A stretch of 64,000 nucleotides of DNA from Streptomyces sp. NBC_00285. Lineage in GTDB: Bacteria; Actinomycetota; Actinomycetes; Streptomycetales; Streptomycetaceae. The notes below the pieces were generated by a model. The model was not told the DNA's origin, searched no databases, and worked only from the letters and a program-made list of their open reading frames with translations. Of the stretch, positions 45,387 through 53,819 are shown piece after piece. The translations under genes and the position numbers were made by a program. The stretch lies in contig NZ_CP108055.1 of assembly GCF_036174265.1 (NCBI RefSeq), positions 4,526,001 to 4,590,000 on the forward strand, written 5' to 3'. Position 1 is the first letter of the stretch; every line of letters starts with the position of its first letter.

Positions 45387-46061
45387 TCAGCGGCCGGGCC
45401 AGCCGTCCAGGTGGCGGTGCATGGTGACGTCGTCCTGTGCGTCACCCTTCGGGGCGTCGGCCACGGCGTCCTTGAGGACGGCGTTGACCTCGGCGGCGAG
45501 GCCGTCCGCCTGGGTACGCAGGTCGGCCGCGGGGACCTTGGAGCGGGTCAGCGCGTCCAGCCGGCGGTGGATGTCGGCGAGTTGGCGGCGATGGGCGGAG
45601 TCGAGGGTGAGCGGGGTGGGCGTGGACACCACGAACTGGTAGGCGCCGGCCAGGGTCTGGCAGCCGGTGCAGTTCTTGTTGGCGGCGTCGCTGAGGTTCA
45701 CGGCGTTCAGACGTGTCTGCTCGCCGGCGAACGTGACGATCTGGAAGGACAGCGCGACCGAACGGCATTCGTCGTCGGCGGAGCAGCCCGACGAGACCGC
45801 GTTGGCCTGGTTGCGTACGGCGGCGGCGTTCACCTTGCCGTACTGCCGGATGGTGAACGAGTCCTTCGTCTCCGTGTGGTCCAGCCGGTTGGCGTGGCTG
45901 AAGACATGGTCCGACGCGACGGCGGGCCGCGACGGCCCGCCGGTGGCGGCCTGCGCCGGCACGGCACTCGCCACACCGGCGACCCCGGCGGCGAACAGCC
46001 CCACGCGGACGGCACGCCGGGTGAGCGGAGAGGTGGGACGCGGTTTTCGGTGACTGCTCAA
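45387..46061 (-). CDS. Secreted protein with paired cysteines, downstream of M50 protease
   Basis: A 224-residue exported protein. The start is TTG 46061, supported by GGAGATCCC spacing and a signal peptide (basic residues to about 20, hydrophobic 21-37, A-Q-A cleavage). The mature part has two close cysteine pairs (S-G-C-S-A-D-D-E-C and N-C-T-G-C), Asn-rich segments and a C-terminal helical region. I do not recognise the family. It follows the protease gene on the same strand after 195 bases that contain weak hairpins, so co-transcription is possible but not certain. Confidence 0.75.
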   Translation of the reverse strand: MSSHRKPRPTSPLTRRAVRVGLFAAGVAGVASAVPAQAATGGPSRPAVASDHVFSHANRLDHTETKDSFTIRQYGKVNAAAVRNQANAVSSGCSADDECRSVALSFQIVTFAGEQTRLNAVNLSDAANKNCTGCQTLAGAYQFVVSTPTPLTLDSAHRRQLADIHRRLDALTRSKVPAADLRTQADGLAAEVNAVLKDAVADAPKGDAQDDVTMHRHLDGWPGR

Positions 46062-46256: not shown

Positions 46257-48188
46257 TCAGGGCGTTGCCGGGGAGGCGGCGGACGGGGGTGGGGACGGGG
46301 AGTCGACCGGGGAGGGCGGGACGCTCTCCGAGGGGATCGGGGACGGGGCCGGGCTCGTGCCCTCACCCGTGCCAGGTGACGACGGTTCCGGGGCCGCCGA
46401 GGTGCCCTGGGCCGGGGACGCCGGCCCGCGGGAGGTGCCCCCGGCAGACGTGCCCGGAGCCGACGCCGACGCGGCCGGTGAGGCGGACGCCGACGCGGCG
46501 GCGGAGCCACCGGAGGAGGGGGCGCCGGAGCCCGAGGGACGGCCCGCCGAAGACGGCGCGGCCGTACCGGAACCGCTGACCGCAGGGTCGTTCGCGGTGT
46601 CCCCGCCCGACGTCGACGCGTCGCCGTCGGGAGTCGCCGCCTGACGGGGCGCTGGTTCCTCCGTCGAGACCCCGGGCTGCAGGATCGGCGCGATCGGGGG
46701 CTTCTTCGGGAGCGGCTGGGGTGTCAGTCCGGACGTCCAGGCATAGCTGAGGCCTGTCAGCCCGGCGAGGACCACCGCGCACAGTGTCACCCGCAACAGG
46801 GGCCGCTCCGCCGTGGACCGCTTCGCCGCGCGGAGGATCCGCCCGCCGATCTTCACGGAGAGGTAGACGACCCCGCCCATCGGGATCAGCAGCATCAGAC
46901 AGCCCAGCACCCCGACGAGCCCGTCGACGACCTTGCCGTCCGCGAGGGCCGCCCCGGTGCCGGAGAACTGCTCGACCATGGACCGGGTCATCGTGGCGAG
47001 GATCCTGGGCAGGTTCCAGAGCGCGTAGCCCATCTCGCCGATGATCAGCGGCACCATGGTCAGCACCCACACGGCAACGATGGTCCGCGCCGACTTCTTC
47101 AGTCCGGCGACCTCTTTGCGCGCGGCCCGTCCCTTGCTCCCCGGCACCAGGCCGAGCAGGATCGGCTTGATCTTGCCGTAGAGATCGGGGACGCCCGCGA
47201 GGTCGCCCAGGATGTAGTAGCCGTCCAGCCGCACGGCCGGCATCAGCTGTTCGAGGATCTCGAAGTGCCCGAGGTAGACCGCCGCCAGGAAGAACTGCTC
47301 CCCCGTGGCGAAGTACAGCCCGGCCATGCCCAGCATGAAGACGACGTTGAAGTAGACCCCGCCCAGGTCGGTCCTGATCCGCCCGCCGCGTCCGATCCGG
47401 TAGACGTCGGTGACGTCGGTGTACATGGACGGCCAGATGAGGAAGATCCCGCAGCCGATGCAGCCGGGCCGGGCGCCGCCGTATCTGCACGCGGAGGCGT
47501 GGCCGAACTCGTGGAAGACGAGCGAGGCCACGGTCAGCCCGAACACGAGCAGGATGAGCACCGGCTGGTCGAGGACCTCCAGGACCGGCTCGATCGCCCC
47601 GAAGAAGCCGAACAGCCACACGTCCAGGGCCACGGCCGAGAGCAGCACGGCCGTGACCACGACCGGCCGGTGCAGCCAGCCGAGCGTCCGCGCGATCCGG
47701 TCCGTGCGCCGCTCGTTGAAGATGACCCGGTGCCCCTTGAGCGCGAGCAGCAGGTCGGAGCGGGGTGCGTCGACCTCGTCGCTCTCCTGGCCCTCGGGGA
47801 CGGTCACCCCGAGCGGTTCGAGTTTCTTCTCCACCAGGTAGCGGATGTTGTCGGAGCTGACCTCGCGGCCGAATCGCGCGCTCACCCGGTGGGCGATCGA
47901 CTCGATGTCGCGCAGGCCGTCGACCGACGACGCCACGAGATGCAGCAGCCGTGACAGCTGCACGACCTGCCCGTCCCCCCGACGGGCGATGTACTTGGGC
48001 TCGGTGAATCCCGACCCCTGGTACTCGCCGTGCAGCCGCAGTCCCGCGCTCAGCCGGGGCACCAACCGCTGTTCGACGACCGGCAGGCTGCCCGTCGCCA
48101 CCTGCTCGTAGGTCACCGGCCAGCCGCCGGGCCCGGGCACCGGCCCGGAGTCGTACAGCGTCGGGGTCCCGCCTCCGAGCACCGTCAT
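46257..48188 (-). CDS. M50 membrane zinc protease with N-terminal PqqD/RRE-like region
   Basis: A 643-residue membrane protein; ATG 48188 follows GGGGGGAG by seven bases. Residues about 42-128 resemble a PqqD-type peptide-recognition domain (P-R-L-S-A-G-L-R-L, then Q-V-V-Q-L, a V-D-G turn, D-I-E-S-I-A-H-R-V-S-A-R-F-G and a final helix). The M50 core has zinc ligands His226, Glu227 and His230 in H-E-F-G-H and Asp322 in R-L-D-G-Y-Y, embedded in several membrane helices (from about 175 to 480). A Ser/Ala/Gly/Pro/Thr-rich tail (about 503-643) ends it. It lies directly downstream of two peptide genes and is their probable maturation protease. Confidence 0.87.
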   Translation of the reverse strand: MTVLGGGTPTLYDSGPVPGPGGWPVTYEQVATGSLPVVEQRLVPRLSAGLRLHGEYQGSGFTEPKYIARRGDGQVVQLSRLLHLVASSVDGLRDIESIAHRVSARFGREVSSDNIRYLVEKKLEPLGVTVPEGQESDEVDAPRSDLLLALKGHRVIFNERRTDRIARTLGWLHRPVVVTAVLLSAVALDVWLFGFFGAIEPVLEVLDQPVLILLVFGLTVASLVFHEFGHASACRYGGARPGCIGCGIFLIWPSMYTDVTDVYRIGRGGRIRTDLGGVYFNVVFMLGMAGLYFATGEQFFLAAVYLGHFEILEQLMPAVRLDGYYILGDLAGVPDLYGKIKPILLGLVPGSKGRAARKEVAGLKKSARTIVAVWVLTMVPLIIGEMGYALWNLPRILATMTRSMVEQFSGTGAALADGKVVDGLVGVLGCLMLLIPMGGVVYLSVKIGGRILRAAKRSTAERPLLRVTLCAVVLAGLTGLSYAWTSGLTPQPLPKKPPIAPILQPGVSTEEPAPRQAATPDGDASTSGGDTANDPAVSGSGTAAPSSAGRPSGSGAPSSGGSAAASASASPAASASAPGTSAGGTSRGPASPAQGTSAAPEPSSPGTGEGTSPAPSPIPSESVPPSPVDSPSPPPSAASPATP

Positions 48189-48224
48189 ACGTGGTCTCCC
48201 CCCATGTCCTGCCCCCGTCATGGC

Positions 48225-48264
48225 CGCCGGGGCGGACCGCACCTGTGCGCGGTCCGCCCCGGCG
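48225..48264. terminator. 16-bp stem-loop between peptide gene and protease gene
   Basis: CGCCGGGGCGGACCGC (48225-48240) pairs perfectly with 48249-48264 around an 8-base loop, 18 bases after the first peptide stop and before the protease start. It could be a partial terminator that keeps peptide transcripts more abundant than protease transcripts. Confidence 0.75.
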
Positions 48265-48282
48265 GGCGTCGTCAGCGCAGGG

Positions 48283-48501
48283 TCACTGGTTGACGGAGAT
48301 CGACTGCGAGGCCTGCGACTCGGCGGCCGACCACGCGGAGTGGTCGTTGACGGCCGCGGACTGGTTGTCGGCGTGGACGTTCGCGATGTGCTTGGTGACG
48401 TTGGTCGTCCGGTTGAAGCTGAACTTCAGCTTGCCCAGGGCCTCCCGGCCCGGCAGCAGCTCCGCGGACTCGGTGTCGAGCTCGTGCATGTCCATGCTCA
48501 T
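48283..48501 (-). CDS. Putative precursor peptide A
   Basis: A 72-residue peptide, ATG 48501 with AAAGGA upstream. Residues 3-38 are almost identical to its tandem paralogue, including E-L-L-P-G-R-E-A-L-G-K-L-K-F-S-F and N-R-T-T-N-V-T-K-H. The C-terminal 34 residues vary but keep a spaced Asn/Ala/Ser pattern and end I-S-V-N-Q. No signal peptide and no cysteine are present. A conserved front and variable back next to a protease gene fits a leader-core precursor. Confidence 0.8.
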   Translation of the reverse strand: MSMDMHELDTESAELLPGREALGKLKFSFNRTTNVTKHIANVHADNQSAAVNDHSAWSAAESQASQSISVNQ

Positions 48502-48553
48502 GATGGATGTCCTTTCAGGTGGTGACGACGGCTGTGGAGGTGGTGCGCGGGAG

Positions 48554-48769
48554 CTACTGGTTGACGCTGATGGCCTGCGAGGCGCCGGAGCTGGCCACGG
48601 ACGACACGGAGTGGTCGTTGAGGGCCAGGGACGAGTTGTGCGCCTCGACGTTCGCGACGTGCTTGGTCACGTTGGTCGTCCGGTTGAAGCTGAACTTCAG
48701 CTTGCCCAGGGCCTCCCGGCCCGGCAGCAGCTCCGCGGACTCGGCCTCGAGCTCGTGCATGTCCATCAT
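48554..48769 (-). CDS. Putative precursor peptide B
   Basis: A 71-residue peptide beginning at ATG 48769 with a GAGGGG site; a long upstream in-frame extension lacks similarity. It matches peptide A over the leader (M-D-M-H-E-L then S-A-E-L-L-P-G-R-E-A-L) and shares the framework N-D-H-S, A-S-Q and I-S-V-N-Q in the C-terminal part, where the other positions differ. It stops 52 bases before peptide A starts, on the same strand, so it is first in the transcript. Confidence 0.8.
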   Translation of the reverse strand: MMDMHELEAESAELLPGREALGKLKFSFNRTTNVTKHVANVEAHNSSLALNDHSVSSVASSGASQAISVNQ

Positions 48770-48831: not shown

Positions 48832-48872
48832 TGTCCAACTTGGTCGGACGTGCTGTCCAACGAGATTGGACA
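48832..48872. promoter_or_regulatory. TGTCCAA/TTGGACA operator-like palindrome
   Basis: TGTCCAA-CGAGA-TTGGACA (48854-48872) is a perfect 7-5-7 palindrome, and another TGTCCAA begins 22 bases upstream at 48832 next to TTGG. GGTCGGAC also occurs twice (48801-48808 and 48842-48849). The cluster lies between the leftward peptide genes and the rightward helix-turn-helix gene, a likely binding place for that regulator. Confidence 0.55.
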
Positions 48873-49001
48873 CTAGGGCCTCGCGGGGCCGTCGCGCAAC
48901 CCGTTCGGGGAATCACCCTTTCGATGCGGGGTGGGGCCGCCCGTAGAATCGGCCCCGACATGGACGGTTCCGCCGAGCGGCAAGCAGGAAGTGACCCACC
49001 C

Positions 49002-49406
49002 GTGGCCAACGCACTCCAGCAGTTGATCCGTGAGCGCCTGGACCGCAAGGGCTGGTCCTACGGCGATGTGGCGCGCCGCGGTGGCATCCCGCGCTCCACC
49101 GTCCACCACCTGGCGACCGCCGAGCGCGTCGTCCGCATGCCCCAGTCGACCACCCTGGAGGGCCTGTCCAAGGGACTGGAACTCCCGTTGGACACCGTGC
49201 GCCGCTCCGCCGCCGAGGCCTGCGGCATCCACGTGTACGGCACCCCGGCCGGCCAGGACTCCGAGGGCGCCGCCCGCCCGGCCGACCCCGAGGTGGATCT
49301 GCTGATCGCCAGCGTCCAGCAACTCTCGGCCGACGACCGCCGCCACGTCGCCGCCCTCGTGGAGTCCCTCCTGGACCGCTCCACGCCCCCCGCACCGAAG
49401 AAGTGA
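49002..49406 (+). CDS. XRE-type helix-turn-helix regulator
   Basis: A 134-residue protein if started at GTG 49002, which has AGGAAG ten bases upstream; an in-frame ATG at 48960, preceded by a TAGAAT hexamer and no ribosome site, is a possible leaderless alternative. The DNA-binding region is R-L-D-R-K-G-W-S-Y-G-D-V-A-R-R-G-G-I-P-R-S-T-V-H-H-L (written in parts of a Cro/C1-like fold), followed by an acidic linker and a helix ending L-V-E-S-L-L-D-R. It diverges from the peptide operon and probably controls it. Confidence 0.82.
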   Translation: MANALQQLIRERLDRKGWSYGDVARRGGIPRSTVHHLATAERVVRMPQSTTLEGLSKGLELPLDTVRRSAAEACGIHVYGTPAGQDSEGAARPADPEVDLLIASVQQLSADDRRHVAALVESLLDRSTPPAPKK

Positions 49407-49747: not shown

Positions 49748-50008
49748 GTGTTGTTCGTGCATGGCGGTCCGGCCACGGTCGTGGTCCGTGGACCTGCCGG
49801 TGAGTCGGTCGTTCTGCTCTCCGGTGAACTGCCCGACGTACTGACCGACGAGTCAGTTACCGAACTCATGGAACTGGCCGCCGCCGTCCTGGACGCGGAC
49901 GAGCTGCCCCTCTTCCACACCTGTCTGAGAACACTGCGCCGCGACGGCTTGCGCGCGGGCCGCCGGATTCAGATCGACGGTGCGGTACTGACCGTGTACG
50001 AGGGGTGA
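49748..50008 (+). CDS. Small hypothetical protein next to bldA
   Basis: An 86-residue protein with GTG 49748 and GGGGGGA a few bases upstream. It has beta strands at the start (T-V-V-V-R-G-P-A-G-E-S-V-V-L), an acidic helix in the middle and a basic turn R-A-G-R-R-I-Q-I-D-G near the end. No family is recognised. It ends 38 bases before the tRNA on the opposite strand. Confidence 0.7.
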   Translation: MLFVHGGPATVVVRGPAGESVVLLSGELPDVLTDESVTELMELAAAVLDADELPLFHTCLRTLRRDGLRAGRRIQIDGAVLTVYEG

Positions 50009-50046
50009 CGGCCCACGGGTGGAGAACCACCACGTGGGCGCGAAAG

Positions 50047-50130
50047 TGCCCGGAGCCGGACTTGAACCGGCACGCCCGCGAAGGGGCAGCGAGGTTTAAG
50101 CTCGCCGTGTCTGCATTCCACCATCCGGGC
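50047..50130 (-). tRNA. bldA: tRNA-Leu (anticodon UAA), bldA
   Basis: An 84-base leucine tRNA on the reverse strand. The acceptor stem GCCCGGA pairs with TCCGGGC, with A as discriminator; the anticodon stem GCGAG/CTCGC holds the loop CTTAAAC, giving anticodon UAA (bases 50098-50096); a long variable arm and GGTTCAAGTCC T-loop follow. CCA is not encoded. This is the only tRNA reading UUA and in Streptomyces is the bldA regulator of development and antibiotic genes. Confidence 0.96.
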
Positions 50131-50520: not shown

Positions 50521-51290
<770 letters not shown>

Positions 51291-51291
<1 letters not shown>

Positions 51292-53819
51292 TGTTCCGCA
51301 CCGCCCTGCGCAACGTGTTCGCGCACAAGGCCAGACTGCTGATGACCGTGCTCGCCGTGATGCTCGGCGTGGCGTTCGTGTCCGGCACGCTGGTCTTCAC
51401 CAACACCATCTCCGAGGCCTACCAGAAGAGTTCGGCCAAGGGCTTCGGCCAGGTCGACGTGGCCGTCACCGCCAAGTCCGAGGAGGACAAGGGCAACACG
51501 ATCGGCAAGAGCCACAAGCTGACGCAGGCTCTGCTGGACCGGAGCGCCGAGGTGCCGGGCGCGGCCAAGGCGATCGGCGTCGTCAGCGGCTTCACCGCCA
51601 TCGCCGACAAGGACGGCAAGCTCATCGGCGGCGGATTCCAGTCGCAGGGCGGCAACTACTCGGGCACCGAGGACCCCCGGTACCCGCTGGCGAAGGGCTC
51701 GGCGCCGCACGGCGCGAACCAGGTCGCGATCGACTCCGAGACGGCGAAGCGGACCGGCTACAAGATCGGCGACACCGTGCGCCTCTCGGTCGACGGCCCG
51801 GTCCTGAAGCCCACCGTCACCGGCATCTTCACCACCGACGACGGCAATGTCGCGGCCGGCGGCAGCCTCGCGCTGTTCGACACGGCCACCGCCCAGAAGC
51901 TGTTCGGCAAGCCGGGAACGTACGACGAGATCGACGTGAAGGCAGCCGCCGGCACCTCCCAGAGCGCGTTGCAGGCCGCTCTGCTCAAGGCGCTCCCCGC
52001 CGACCGGGTGGAGACCACGACCGGCAAGGAACTCGCCGACTCCCAGGCGAAGTTGATTTCCTCGCAGATGAGCGGGATGAAGCAGGGCCTGCTGGTCTTC
52101 GCGGGCATCGCGCTGTTCGTCGGCACCTTCATCATCACCAACACCTTCACCATGCTGGTCGCCCAGCGCACCAGGGAACTCGCGCTGCTGCGGGCGGTCG
52201 GCGCGTCCCGCAGGCAGGTCACCCGGTCGGTACTGGCCGAGGCGTTCCTGGTCGGTCTGGTGGCCGCCGTGACGGGCCTGGTCGCCGGTATCGGCATCGG
52301 GGCCGGACTGCGCTCGCTGATGGGCTCGCTCGGCGCCACCGTCCCGGACGGGCCGCTCGTCATCACGCCGGGCACCATCGGCGCGGCCCTCGCGGTCGGC
52401 GTCCTGATCACCATGCTCGCGGCCTGGCTGCCGGGCCGCAGAGCGGCGAAGATCCCGCCGGTCGCCGCGATGAGCAGCCTGCACGCGAAGGCGACCACCA
52501 AGTCGCTGGTGCTGCGCAACACGCTGGGCGCGCTGTTCAGCGGCGCGGGTGTCGCCGTCGTCCTCGCGGCGACGACGATGGAGGGCTCCGACGGTCAGGC
52601 CCCCATGGGCATGGGCGCGGTCCTGCTGATCATCGGCGTCTTCATCCTCACCCCGCTCCTCTCCCGCCCGCTGATCGCGGCGGCGGCCCCGGCCATGCGC
52701 GTGTTCGGCATCTCGGGGAAGCTGGCCCGTCAGAACTCGGTGCGCAACCCGCGCCGTACGGCCGCCACCGCCTCCGCGCTGATGATCGGCCTCACCCTGA
52801 TCACCGGGATGACGGTGATGGCGGGCAGCCTCCAGAAGTCGATCGACAAGATGGCGACGTCGGCGATCAGGGCGGACTACGTCGTCTCCATGGCGAACGG
52901 CAACGAGCTCTCGCCGGACGTCGAGAAGAAGCTGCGGAACGTCGCCGACGTCACCGCGGTGAGCCCGCTGCGCAACGCGGTCGCCCGCATCGACGGCGAT
53001 ACCGAGTACCTGACCGGCGTGAACGGCTCGGCCATCGGCGCTCTGACCGACCTGAAGGTCGACGACGGCGCGTTCGAGGTCGGCGGCACCAAGGTGGTCG
53101 TGGACAAGGACAGGGCCAAGTCCTTCGGCTGGAGGGCGGGTTCGACCTTCACCGCCCACTACGAGGACGGCAAGGCGCAGAAGCTCACGGTCTCCGGGGT
53201 CTACGAGGGCAACGAGCTGATCAGCGGCATCATGCTCGACACCGCGACGGTCTCACCGCACCTGACCGACGTGACCGACATGCAGGTCATGCTGAAGACG
53301 TCGGGCGGTGTCTCCGACGCCACGAAGGACAGGCTGGAGAAGGCCCTCGGCTCCAACCCGGCCATCAAGGTCCAGGACAAGAAGGACCTGTCCGACTCCA
53401 TCGCGCAGATGTTCACGCTGATGCTGAACATGCTCTACGGCCTGCTCGCCATGGCGGTGATCGTCGCCGTTCTCGGGGTCGTCAACACCCTGGCGATGTC
53501 GGTCTTCGAGCGCTCCCAGGAGATCGGCATGCTCCGCGCGATCGGCCTGGACCGCAAGGGCATCAAGCGGATGGTCCGTCTGGAGTCCCTGGTCATCTCG
53601 CTCTTCGGCGGGGTGCTCGGCATCGGTCTGGGCGTGTTCTTCGGCTGGGCGGCCGGTGAGCTCCTCGGCACGAAGATGCCGACGTACGAACTCGTCGTGC
53701 CCTGGGCCAGGATGGCGGTCTTCCTTCTCCTGGCGGCGACGGTGGGCATCCTCGCGGCGCTGTGGCCGGCCCGCAGGGCGGCCCGGATGAACATGCTGGC
53801 CGCCATCAAGGCGGAGTAG
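51291..53819 (+). CDS. FtsX-family ABC transporter permease, duplicated
   Basis: An 842-residue membrane protein overlapping the ATPase gene (TGATG). It has an N-terminal helix, a large extracytoplasmic domain (about 45-260), an FtsX block of three helices with R-E-L-A-L-L-R-A-V-G-A-S-R-R-Q-V, a second half with another external domain (about 500-690) and a second FtsX block with E-I-G-M-L-R-A-I-G-L-D-R-K-G. Such Streptomyces exporters often remove lipids or antimicrobial peptides. The substrate is unknown. Confidence 0.92.

Follow-up and report, generated by a model that had tools for sequence, protein, structure and literature searches.

What might a streptomycete make from two short, closely related peptides encoded directly in front of a membrane protease? 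This question is raised by a locus of Streptomyces sp. NBC_00285, within 64,000 nucleotides of contig NZ_CP108055.1 (positions 4,526,001 to 4,590,000, forward strand) that are referred to here as the window and numbered from their first letter. An earlier, sequence-only reading had taken positions 46257-48769 for a cassette of tandem precursor peptides (here termed PEP) and an M50 protease, with a variable core as in ribosomally synthesized and post-translationally modified peptides (RiPPs). The peptides and the protease stand; what that reading missed is that the cassette extends past both boundaries, with a third core gene, for a partner protein termed C4, lying downstream and an operator and a regulator lying upstream. 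The answer proposed here is a three-part system of peptide maturation and extracellular beta-arch assembly, and as a whole it has about an even chance of being correct. Because neither an exporter nor a modifying enzyme is conserved around the protease, the simplest account is that the protease would cut and release PEP, whose core would then pair with C4.

Composition and linkage of the cassette

The core of the cassette comprises the following features, all encoded on the reverse strand.

48554..48769 (-): PEP1, a precursor peptide of 71 residues with an acidic leader (ELLPGREAL at residues 13-21), a linker and a predicted beta-arch core (strand 43-51, turn at S54, strand 59-71)
48283..48501 (-): PEP2, a 72-residue paralogue of PEP1
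46257..48188 (-): site-2-type membrane protease of 643 residues (RRE-M50), with a long Pro/Ser/Thr-rich C-terminal tail
47820..48038 (-): domain of the protease resembling PqqD and the RiPP recognition element (RRE), residues 51-123, modelled by AlphaFold2 (AF2) as beta-beta-beta-alpha-alpha-alpha, with Foldseek and Pfam matches
47499..47513 (-): HEFGH zinc-binding motif of the protease, residues 226-230
45387..46061 (-): C4, a putatively secreted partner protein of 224 residues, with a signal-peptide-like N-terminus (by eye), three strand-turn-strand units, a helical hairpin and a C-terminal strand
45834..45923 (-): first unit of C4, residues 47-76, degenerate and without Cys
45726..45827 (-): second unit of C4, residues 79-112, with the same strand-turn-strand pattern and a Cys...Cys turn
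45621..45713 (-): third unit of C4, residues 117-147, which aligns to the PEP core without gaps

The host genome of 10.3 Mb was found to hold two PEP copies, PEP1 and PEP2, and a single C4. Among 295 genomes of the same genus, 37 matched the PEP profile, the host included (E<=0.01), and a first set of 36 stretches, made up of the window and 35 stretches fetched from 30 such genomes, covers the surroundings in 31 of these 37 (all except G141, G189, G201, G235, G242 and G292). The linkage can be read directly from the sequences: PEP is the gene immediately before M50 in 36 of 36 stretches, and C4 follows M50 in 33, the other three contigs ending at the protease. The association of PEP with M50 is well above chance, and the conserved co-occurrence in other genomes that the earlier reading had proposed to check is borne out by this set.

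A second set was obtained by scanning named genomes with the protease profile and keeping the best 80 of 134 relatives, which belong to Streptomyces, Streptacidiphilus, Peterkaempfera, Actinacidiphila, Actinospica and a few less precisely named records; it shares contigs with the first set, and counts from the two must not be summed. Relatives were also seen in the named strains S. canus DSM 40017 and S. griseorubiginosus DSM 40469. C4 follows M50 in 71 of the 80 loci, the other nine contigs ending 1-46 bases (eight loci) or 352 bases (L146) past M50, and PEP lies near M50 in 79, the remaining locus (L114) being at a contig edge. A six-frame search of eight stretches revealed C4 in L114 and L121.

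C4 occurs across Actinomycetota, with its profile matching 24 of 296 class-wide genomes (E<=0.01) and, once rebuilt with divergent members, 16 of 296 phylum-wide genomes (E<=1e-4), the host being included in both counts. Of 34 divergent stretches fetched by the C4 profile, 29 contain M50; the other five are L190 and L200, which hold additional C4 copies, L208, whose contig stops at C4, L210 (described below), and L217, with just a C4-like piece. Among the 29 actinobacterial loci with M50, C4 is a separate gene near the protease in 16 and is fused to it in 12, and in L205, whose contig breaks off inside M50, it lies at another place on that contig. A PEP is found close to M50 in 26 of the 29, with the other three at contig edges.

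Little else travels with these genes. In the 36 Streptomyces loci, besides PEP, C4, a helix-turn-helix (HTH) regulator and a small protein termed c3, no family within eight genes of the protease occurs in more than 14, and those 14 form one synteny group; around M50 in the 29 divergent loci (up to six genes away), the most frequent families beyond PEP (26) and separate C4 (16) are a lipoprotein (6) and a dehydrogenase-like family (4). Neither set shows a conserved modifying enzyme or exporter, in keeping with the earlier observation that no known RiPP-modifying enzyme adjoins the peptides. A pair of ATP-binding cassette (ABC) transporter genes at 50521-53819 was considered as an exporter and rejected, since just 13 of the 36 loci have it close by, all of one synteny group. 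A defence system was likewise rejected, with PADLOC matching only the HTH protein, weakly, among four window proteins.

Probable leader recognition and the predicted fold of core and partner

The protease lies in an open reading frame spanning 46257-48242 on the reverse strand; the start at 48188 has the better ribosome-binding site by eye, and 48242 is the less likely of the two. An alignment of 23 homologues shows no variation in HEFGH (226-230) or LDGY (321-324), which bears out the assignment of a membrane M50 protease next to the peptides. An AF2 model of 429 residues (47 sequences, pLDDT 84.9, pTM 0.73) predicts three strands and three helices for residues 51-123, followed by membrane helices. 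Foldseek returned no match to this model below E 0.001; its matches include the lasso-peptide RRE protein TbiB1 with leader (5v1u, prob 0.98, target TM 0.62, E 0.18), PqqD (5sxy, prob 0.95, target TM 0.59, E 0.45) and SpoIVFB (8vjl, prob 0.85, E 0.19). Pfam PqqD is the most frequent match among the protease homologues (6 of 32, best E 0.0014). The RRE identity of the N-terminus, as first proposed from the letters, is thus well supported by the modelled fold and moderately by sequence. Two of the three points on which the sequence-only reading had made itself depend, a structural match to RRE/PqqD and conserved co-occurrence of peptides and protease, were found, and it is highly probable that the PEP leader is cleaved under RRE guidance. 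As a side observation, the M50 protein of L201 (5334-7625) carries a MinD/ParA-like ATPase at its C-terminus (Pfam CbiA, E 3.4e-10) in place of the Pro/Ser tail or a C4 domain, and the same arrangement is seen by eye in L202 (5483-7777) and L203 (6683-8902).

PEP1 and PEP2 are identical at 36 of 40 aligned leader positions and at 20 of their last 31 residues, consistent with the near-identical N-terminal parts and the leader/core layout first noted. The leader motif LPxRE is kept in most distant PEPs, with LPxKE in the fused-type loci and no Pro in L205. The number of PEP copies per locus ranges from one to four, and most Streptomyces loci encode two that differ from each other. Lengths in the non-fused divergent loci are ~64-82 residues, except for one call of 117 residues that probably starts too early; in contrast, the M50-C4 fusions always (12 of 12) stand beside a PEP of 210-285 residues, in which one leader precedes two repeat-rich halves and a linker.

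Variation in the core falls mainly at alternate residues and is not random. Among 31 Streptomyces PEPs, PEP1 positions 43, 45, 47, 49 and 51 have an entropy of 0, against 0.95-1.93 bits at 44, 46, 48 and 50; the odd positions of 59-71 have entropies of 0.21, 0, 0.35, 0, 0, 0.96 and 0, against 1.28-2.94 at the even ones. These alternating invariant residues suggest two beta-strands with one buried, ladder-like face, and this conserved, polar face persists for the most part across distant taxa. No credible Pfam or NCBIfam match was found for the PEP and C4 members tested, and weak Pfam matches of single members (Mei5, Thioredoxin_3 and others) were judged to be chance. Leaderless basic or mixed open reading frames of 54-72 residues with a PEP-like core have also been seen beside PEP genes (L205:8612-8812, L206:11828-12034, L209:7107-7325 and L189:5719-5883), and in three Streptomyces loci (L033, L034 and L035) two PEP copies are 6-8 kb apart, and by eye the genes in between are sigma-factor-like and HTH genes.

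The same kind of pattern recurs in C4, whose aligned units read N-x-A-x-A...C...C-x-(T/S)-x-A-x-(A/S)-x-Q-x-(I/V); a regular expression for the repeat missed several members. An AF2 model of C4 (193 residues, 30 sequences, pLDDT 87.7, pTM 0.84) predicts six strands in three pairs across the units, followed by the helical hairpin and a last strand, and thereby supports the proposed fold. In an hhalign comparison, the PEP core aligned with the third unit over 25 columns without gaps (score 16.7, probability 5.5%), a score above all of 200 column-shuffled C4 profiles (mean 7.6, maximum 13.2), and with Streptomyces members alone the alignment fell at the same place on C4 (E 0.01, probability 4%). 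A search of PDB sequences with the C4 and PEP profiles gave nothing informative. Thioredoxin_3 matched 5 of 30 C4s weakly (best E 0.048), probably because of CxxC. That PEP and C4 share one fold and act as partners is probable.

Taken together, the alternating variation of the core, its recurrence in C4 and the 210-285-residue PEPs of the 12 fused loci point towards PEP being a subunit that folds and assembles, as opposed to a small metabolite carrying modifications. A variable core of the RiPP kind, in the form first proposed, is not supported. A modified RiPP is nonetheless the first alternative to be weighed: the RRE protease would read the leader, an enzyme encoded elsewhere or not recognised would modify the core, and the product would be small and bioactive. 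The layout of leader and core and the fusion of RRE to site-2 protease are as in the daptides (PMC10036551), and the invariant Ser, Asn and Gln positions could be sites of modification. Yet a recurrent modifying enzyme, the defining component of such a system, is lacking in the 36 and 29 loci, the products of the fused loci would be ~185-260 residues long, and the core pattern is common to the secreted C4; a modified RiPP is therefore unlikely.

Proposed course of events and its regulation

From these parts we infer the following. Each PEP would start out with an acidic leader that bears LPx(R/K)E; on the cytoplasmic side the RRE domain of M50 would bind this leader, and the zinc site within the membrane would cut it off. 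M50 itself probably also moves the product out of the cell, a role proposed for EpeP, and it is the likely exporter because no other is conserved. In the window, the released product would be a beta-arch of ~30-45 residues, unmodified or lightly modified, with an Asn/Ser/Ala/Gln ladder face and a capacity for self-stacking; the geometry of the repeat is what suggests stacking into a fibre. C4, secreted separately or fused C-terminally to the protease, would present three units in one chain together with a helical cap, and might serve as a nucleator, cap or anchor. Its place on the C-terminal side of the protease in the 12 fusions supports a direct hand-over. The alternating conservation and the C4 model are compatible with a cross-beta functional amyloid, and the chance that PEP assembles outside the cell is roughly equal either way.

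Several observations weigh against this scheme. In L210 (8361-10374), PEP copies are followed directly by C4 and M50 was not found in the stretch, and two genomes hold extra C4 apart from M50. In the Foldseek search of the protease model, GdmN, an enzyme of other function, scores equally high (prob 0.96, E 0.10), and a profile search of PDB sequences gave PqqD (3g2b) only at E 0.45, beneath several unrelated chains. Hydrophobic segments number 5-8 in the M50 proteins and six in that of the window, a variation that leaves the outer position of the C-terminus unsettled. The hhalign probabilities of 4-6% for PEP and C4 are low despite a score above all shuffles. Foldseek placed the amyloid FapC first for the C4 model, at a level that is not significant (E 0.021, prob 0.04, TM 0.10), and the CsgA fibril at rank 29. 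The curlin repeat family matched 0 of 30 PEP and 0 of 30 C4 members (limit E 10, with HMMER filters dropping most matches above ~0.1), and no match of PEP or C4 to any other amyloid family, Fap included, was found. Finally, Pfam Gasdermin matched 4 of 30 PEP relatives weakly (best E 0.0057), with two long PEPs among the matches of another scan, so that the strands of PEP may conceivably insert into membranes.

This last point leads to a second alternative, in which the beta-stranded peptides form either a two-peptide bacteriocin or an inhibitor that works by contact, possibly by opening pores, and immunity is conferred by C4 or c3. The EpeP and MpaP relatives of the protease mature peptides that are thought to target membranes or the cell envelope (PMC7614699, PMC10036551), and the two different peptides of most Streptomyces loci and the amphipathic, alternating strands, along with the Gasdermin matches, are in line with such a role. 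Unlike fast-diverging toxin cores, however, PEP largely keeps its polar face over distant taxa; no transporter is conserved; and C4 resembles a multi-copy relative of PEP that is fused to the protease in 12 loci, rather than an immunity protein. A bacteriocin is thus distinctly unlikely.

The following features lie between and upstream of the core genes.

48854..48872 (-): palindromic operator-like site, TGTCCAATCTCGTTGGACA, between the HTH regulator and PEP1
48224..48265 (-): strong stem-loop without a T run, between PEP2 and the protease gene
49002..49406 (+): HTH (Xre-like) regulator, cluster c1, divergent from PEP1 (Pfam HTH_3, E 2.1e-5), with a possible start of the open reading frame at 48960
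49748..50008 (+): c3, a protein of 86 residues with no assigned family, downstream of the HTH regulator

The palindrome TGTCCAAN5TTGGACA is present in all 25 divergent HTH-PEP intergenic regions of the 36 stretches, 24 of them with the exact sequence listed above. Its core, GTCCAAN5TTGGAC, occurs at a single place in the host genome, so the regulator looks specific to the cassette and would control the operon through this operator. Of the 36 loci, 35 have the regulator and 32 have c3, for which no credible Pfam match was found, no more than eight genes from the protease. A stem of at least 12 pairs (one mismatch allowed) separates PEP from M50 in 33 of 36 loci and exceeds that of all 20 shuffles in 30; it may favour the PEP transcript over the protease transcript and so hold expression of the subunit above that of the protease. 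A consensus scan found no promoter or terminator, the stem-loop region included; by eye, a putative TTGCGC/TAGTGT promoter overlaps the operator.

A dedicated local regulator with a unique operator could also suggest signalling, the protease setting free a pheromone peptide and C4 or the HTH protein serving to sense it, and M50 proteases do release peptide signals in other systems. Against this, profiles of the HTH regulator and c3 had no match in 20 divergent stretches scanned (the operator was not part of that search), no HTH family stands beside M50 in more than 4 of 29 divergent loci, and the mature part of PEP is long and structurally constrained; signalling is improbable. That PEP stays in the cytoplasm as a regulator or inhibitor of the protease, with C4 or another membrane protein as the real substrate, fits its lack of a signal peptide (by eye) and a leader that would bind the protease, but sits so poorly with one to four copies and a conserved C-terminal pattern matching that of C4, with its signal-like N-terminus, that it is very improbable.

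The cassette has varied neighbours. A tRNA-Leu gene with anticodon TAA (50046-50130 of the window), of the bldA type, adjoins it here and in L046, L050 and L053 and in none of the other 18 loci scanned, which is synteny of one group. A lipoprotein-like gene (by eye) of ~220-270 residues follows C4 in six divergent loci (L184, L187, L193, L194, L206 and L207). In one lineage of Streptomycetaceae, small genes resembling pieces of IS3 transposases, and with them a small protein, c18, are found downstream of C4 (L042:10600-11440, L036, L039, L040, L043, L129, L132, L134, L137, L138 and L147). The transposase-like genes match HTH_Tnp_1, or HTH_21 with no or a degenerate catalytic domain; gene order is similar from locus to locus, and these are possibly domesticated regulators. 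In one Streptomyces lineage (L041:6997-8012, L045, L047 and L049), a pair of secreted proteins without a Pfam match, which we take to be rodlin-like, stands beside the cassette.

Relation to known systems

The closest likeness is to the daptide peptidase MpaP, an RRE-dependent intramembrane peptidase that removes a leader and in which, as here, an RRE is fused N-terminally to an intramembrane site-2 protease, with short leader peptides encoded nearby (PMC10036551). The daptide leader motif is ELExMEAP rather than LPxRE, the core ends in Thr rather than Gln, and no C4-like partner is mentioned in the available part of that account. Membership in the daptides was rejected: the window protease reaches 71.1 bits against the NCBIfam model daptide_HExxH (NF041824, E 9e-20), well under the curated cut-off of 300, and neither enzymes like MpaB, MpaC, MpaD or MpaM nor genes for an oxidative decarboxylase, aminotransferase or methyltransferase recur beside the protease in the 36 and 29 loci. 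A second relative is EpeP, which is believed to cut a ribosomal peptide and carry it out of the cell (PMC10885120, PMC7614699). The shared feature is an M50 protease that would act on such a peptide, and the YydH/LiaK model (NF058609) matches the window protease at E 4e-9; epipeptide membership was also rejected, with 36.5 bits against a curated cut-off of 225 and neither the radical-SAM epimerase nor the EpeAB transporter recurring in the 36 loci.

On the side of the product, the strand-turn-strand units with Asn/Gln/Ser/Ala ladders seen here in sequences and model are a point in common with curli and Fap. Short units of this kind define the curlin pattern, and curli also have a multi-unit nucleator partner. 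Curli and Fap subunits are exported by an outer-membrane secretion channel, in place of which the cassette would use a leader and a protease, and membership of PEP or C4 in the curlin family was rejected for lack of any match among the 30 PEP and 30 C4 members scanned. Chaplins and rodlins are small, secreted, assembling proteins of Streptomyces that have signal peptides and no RRE protease, and PEP, with its leader and RRE protease, is set apart from them as they are generally described.

The cassette was not named in the literature searched, at the level of titles and abstract openings, and no work there was found to join a daptide precursor peptide with M50 or a curlin repeat with Actinobacteria. 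A term search of the main text of the decRiPPter paper (PMC7794033) gave neither M50 nor RRE. The daptide study picked one of several RRE families with co-occurring short reading frames (PMC10036551), and the present family may sit unnamed in lists of that kind. Peptide maturation by this logic has precedents; none turned up in the literature searched for its application to a structural beta-arch subunit that has a covalent multi-unit partner. It is tempting to see here a new class of extracellular assembly, widespread in Actinomycetota, in which leader-guided beta-arch peptides would be matured and exported by a single RRE-site-2 protease, with no modification enzyme or ABC exporter, and would polymerise on a covalent three-rung C4 template that many lineages have built into the protease itself, one protein then combining cutting, export and templated assembly; this broader proposal is tentative, with somewhat less than an even chance.

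Amyloid outside the cell is on record for Gram-positive bacteria, Geodermatophilus obscurus among them, in an account whose available part names no gene (PMC3035280), and the cassette is a candidate gene source for such material. Moreover, RRE domains serve as markers for hidden RiPP natural products (PMC10036551); in the present cassette the RRE seems to serve a structural, unmodified subunit, and the logic of leader, RRE and protease would then reach beyond RiPP chemistry.

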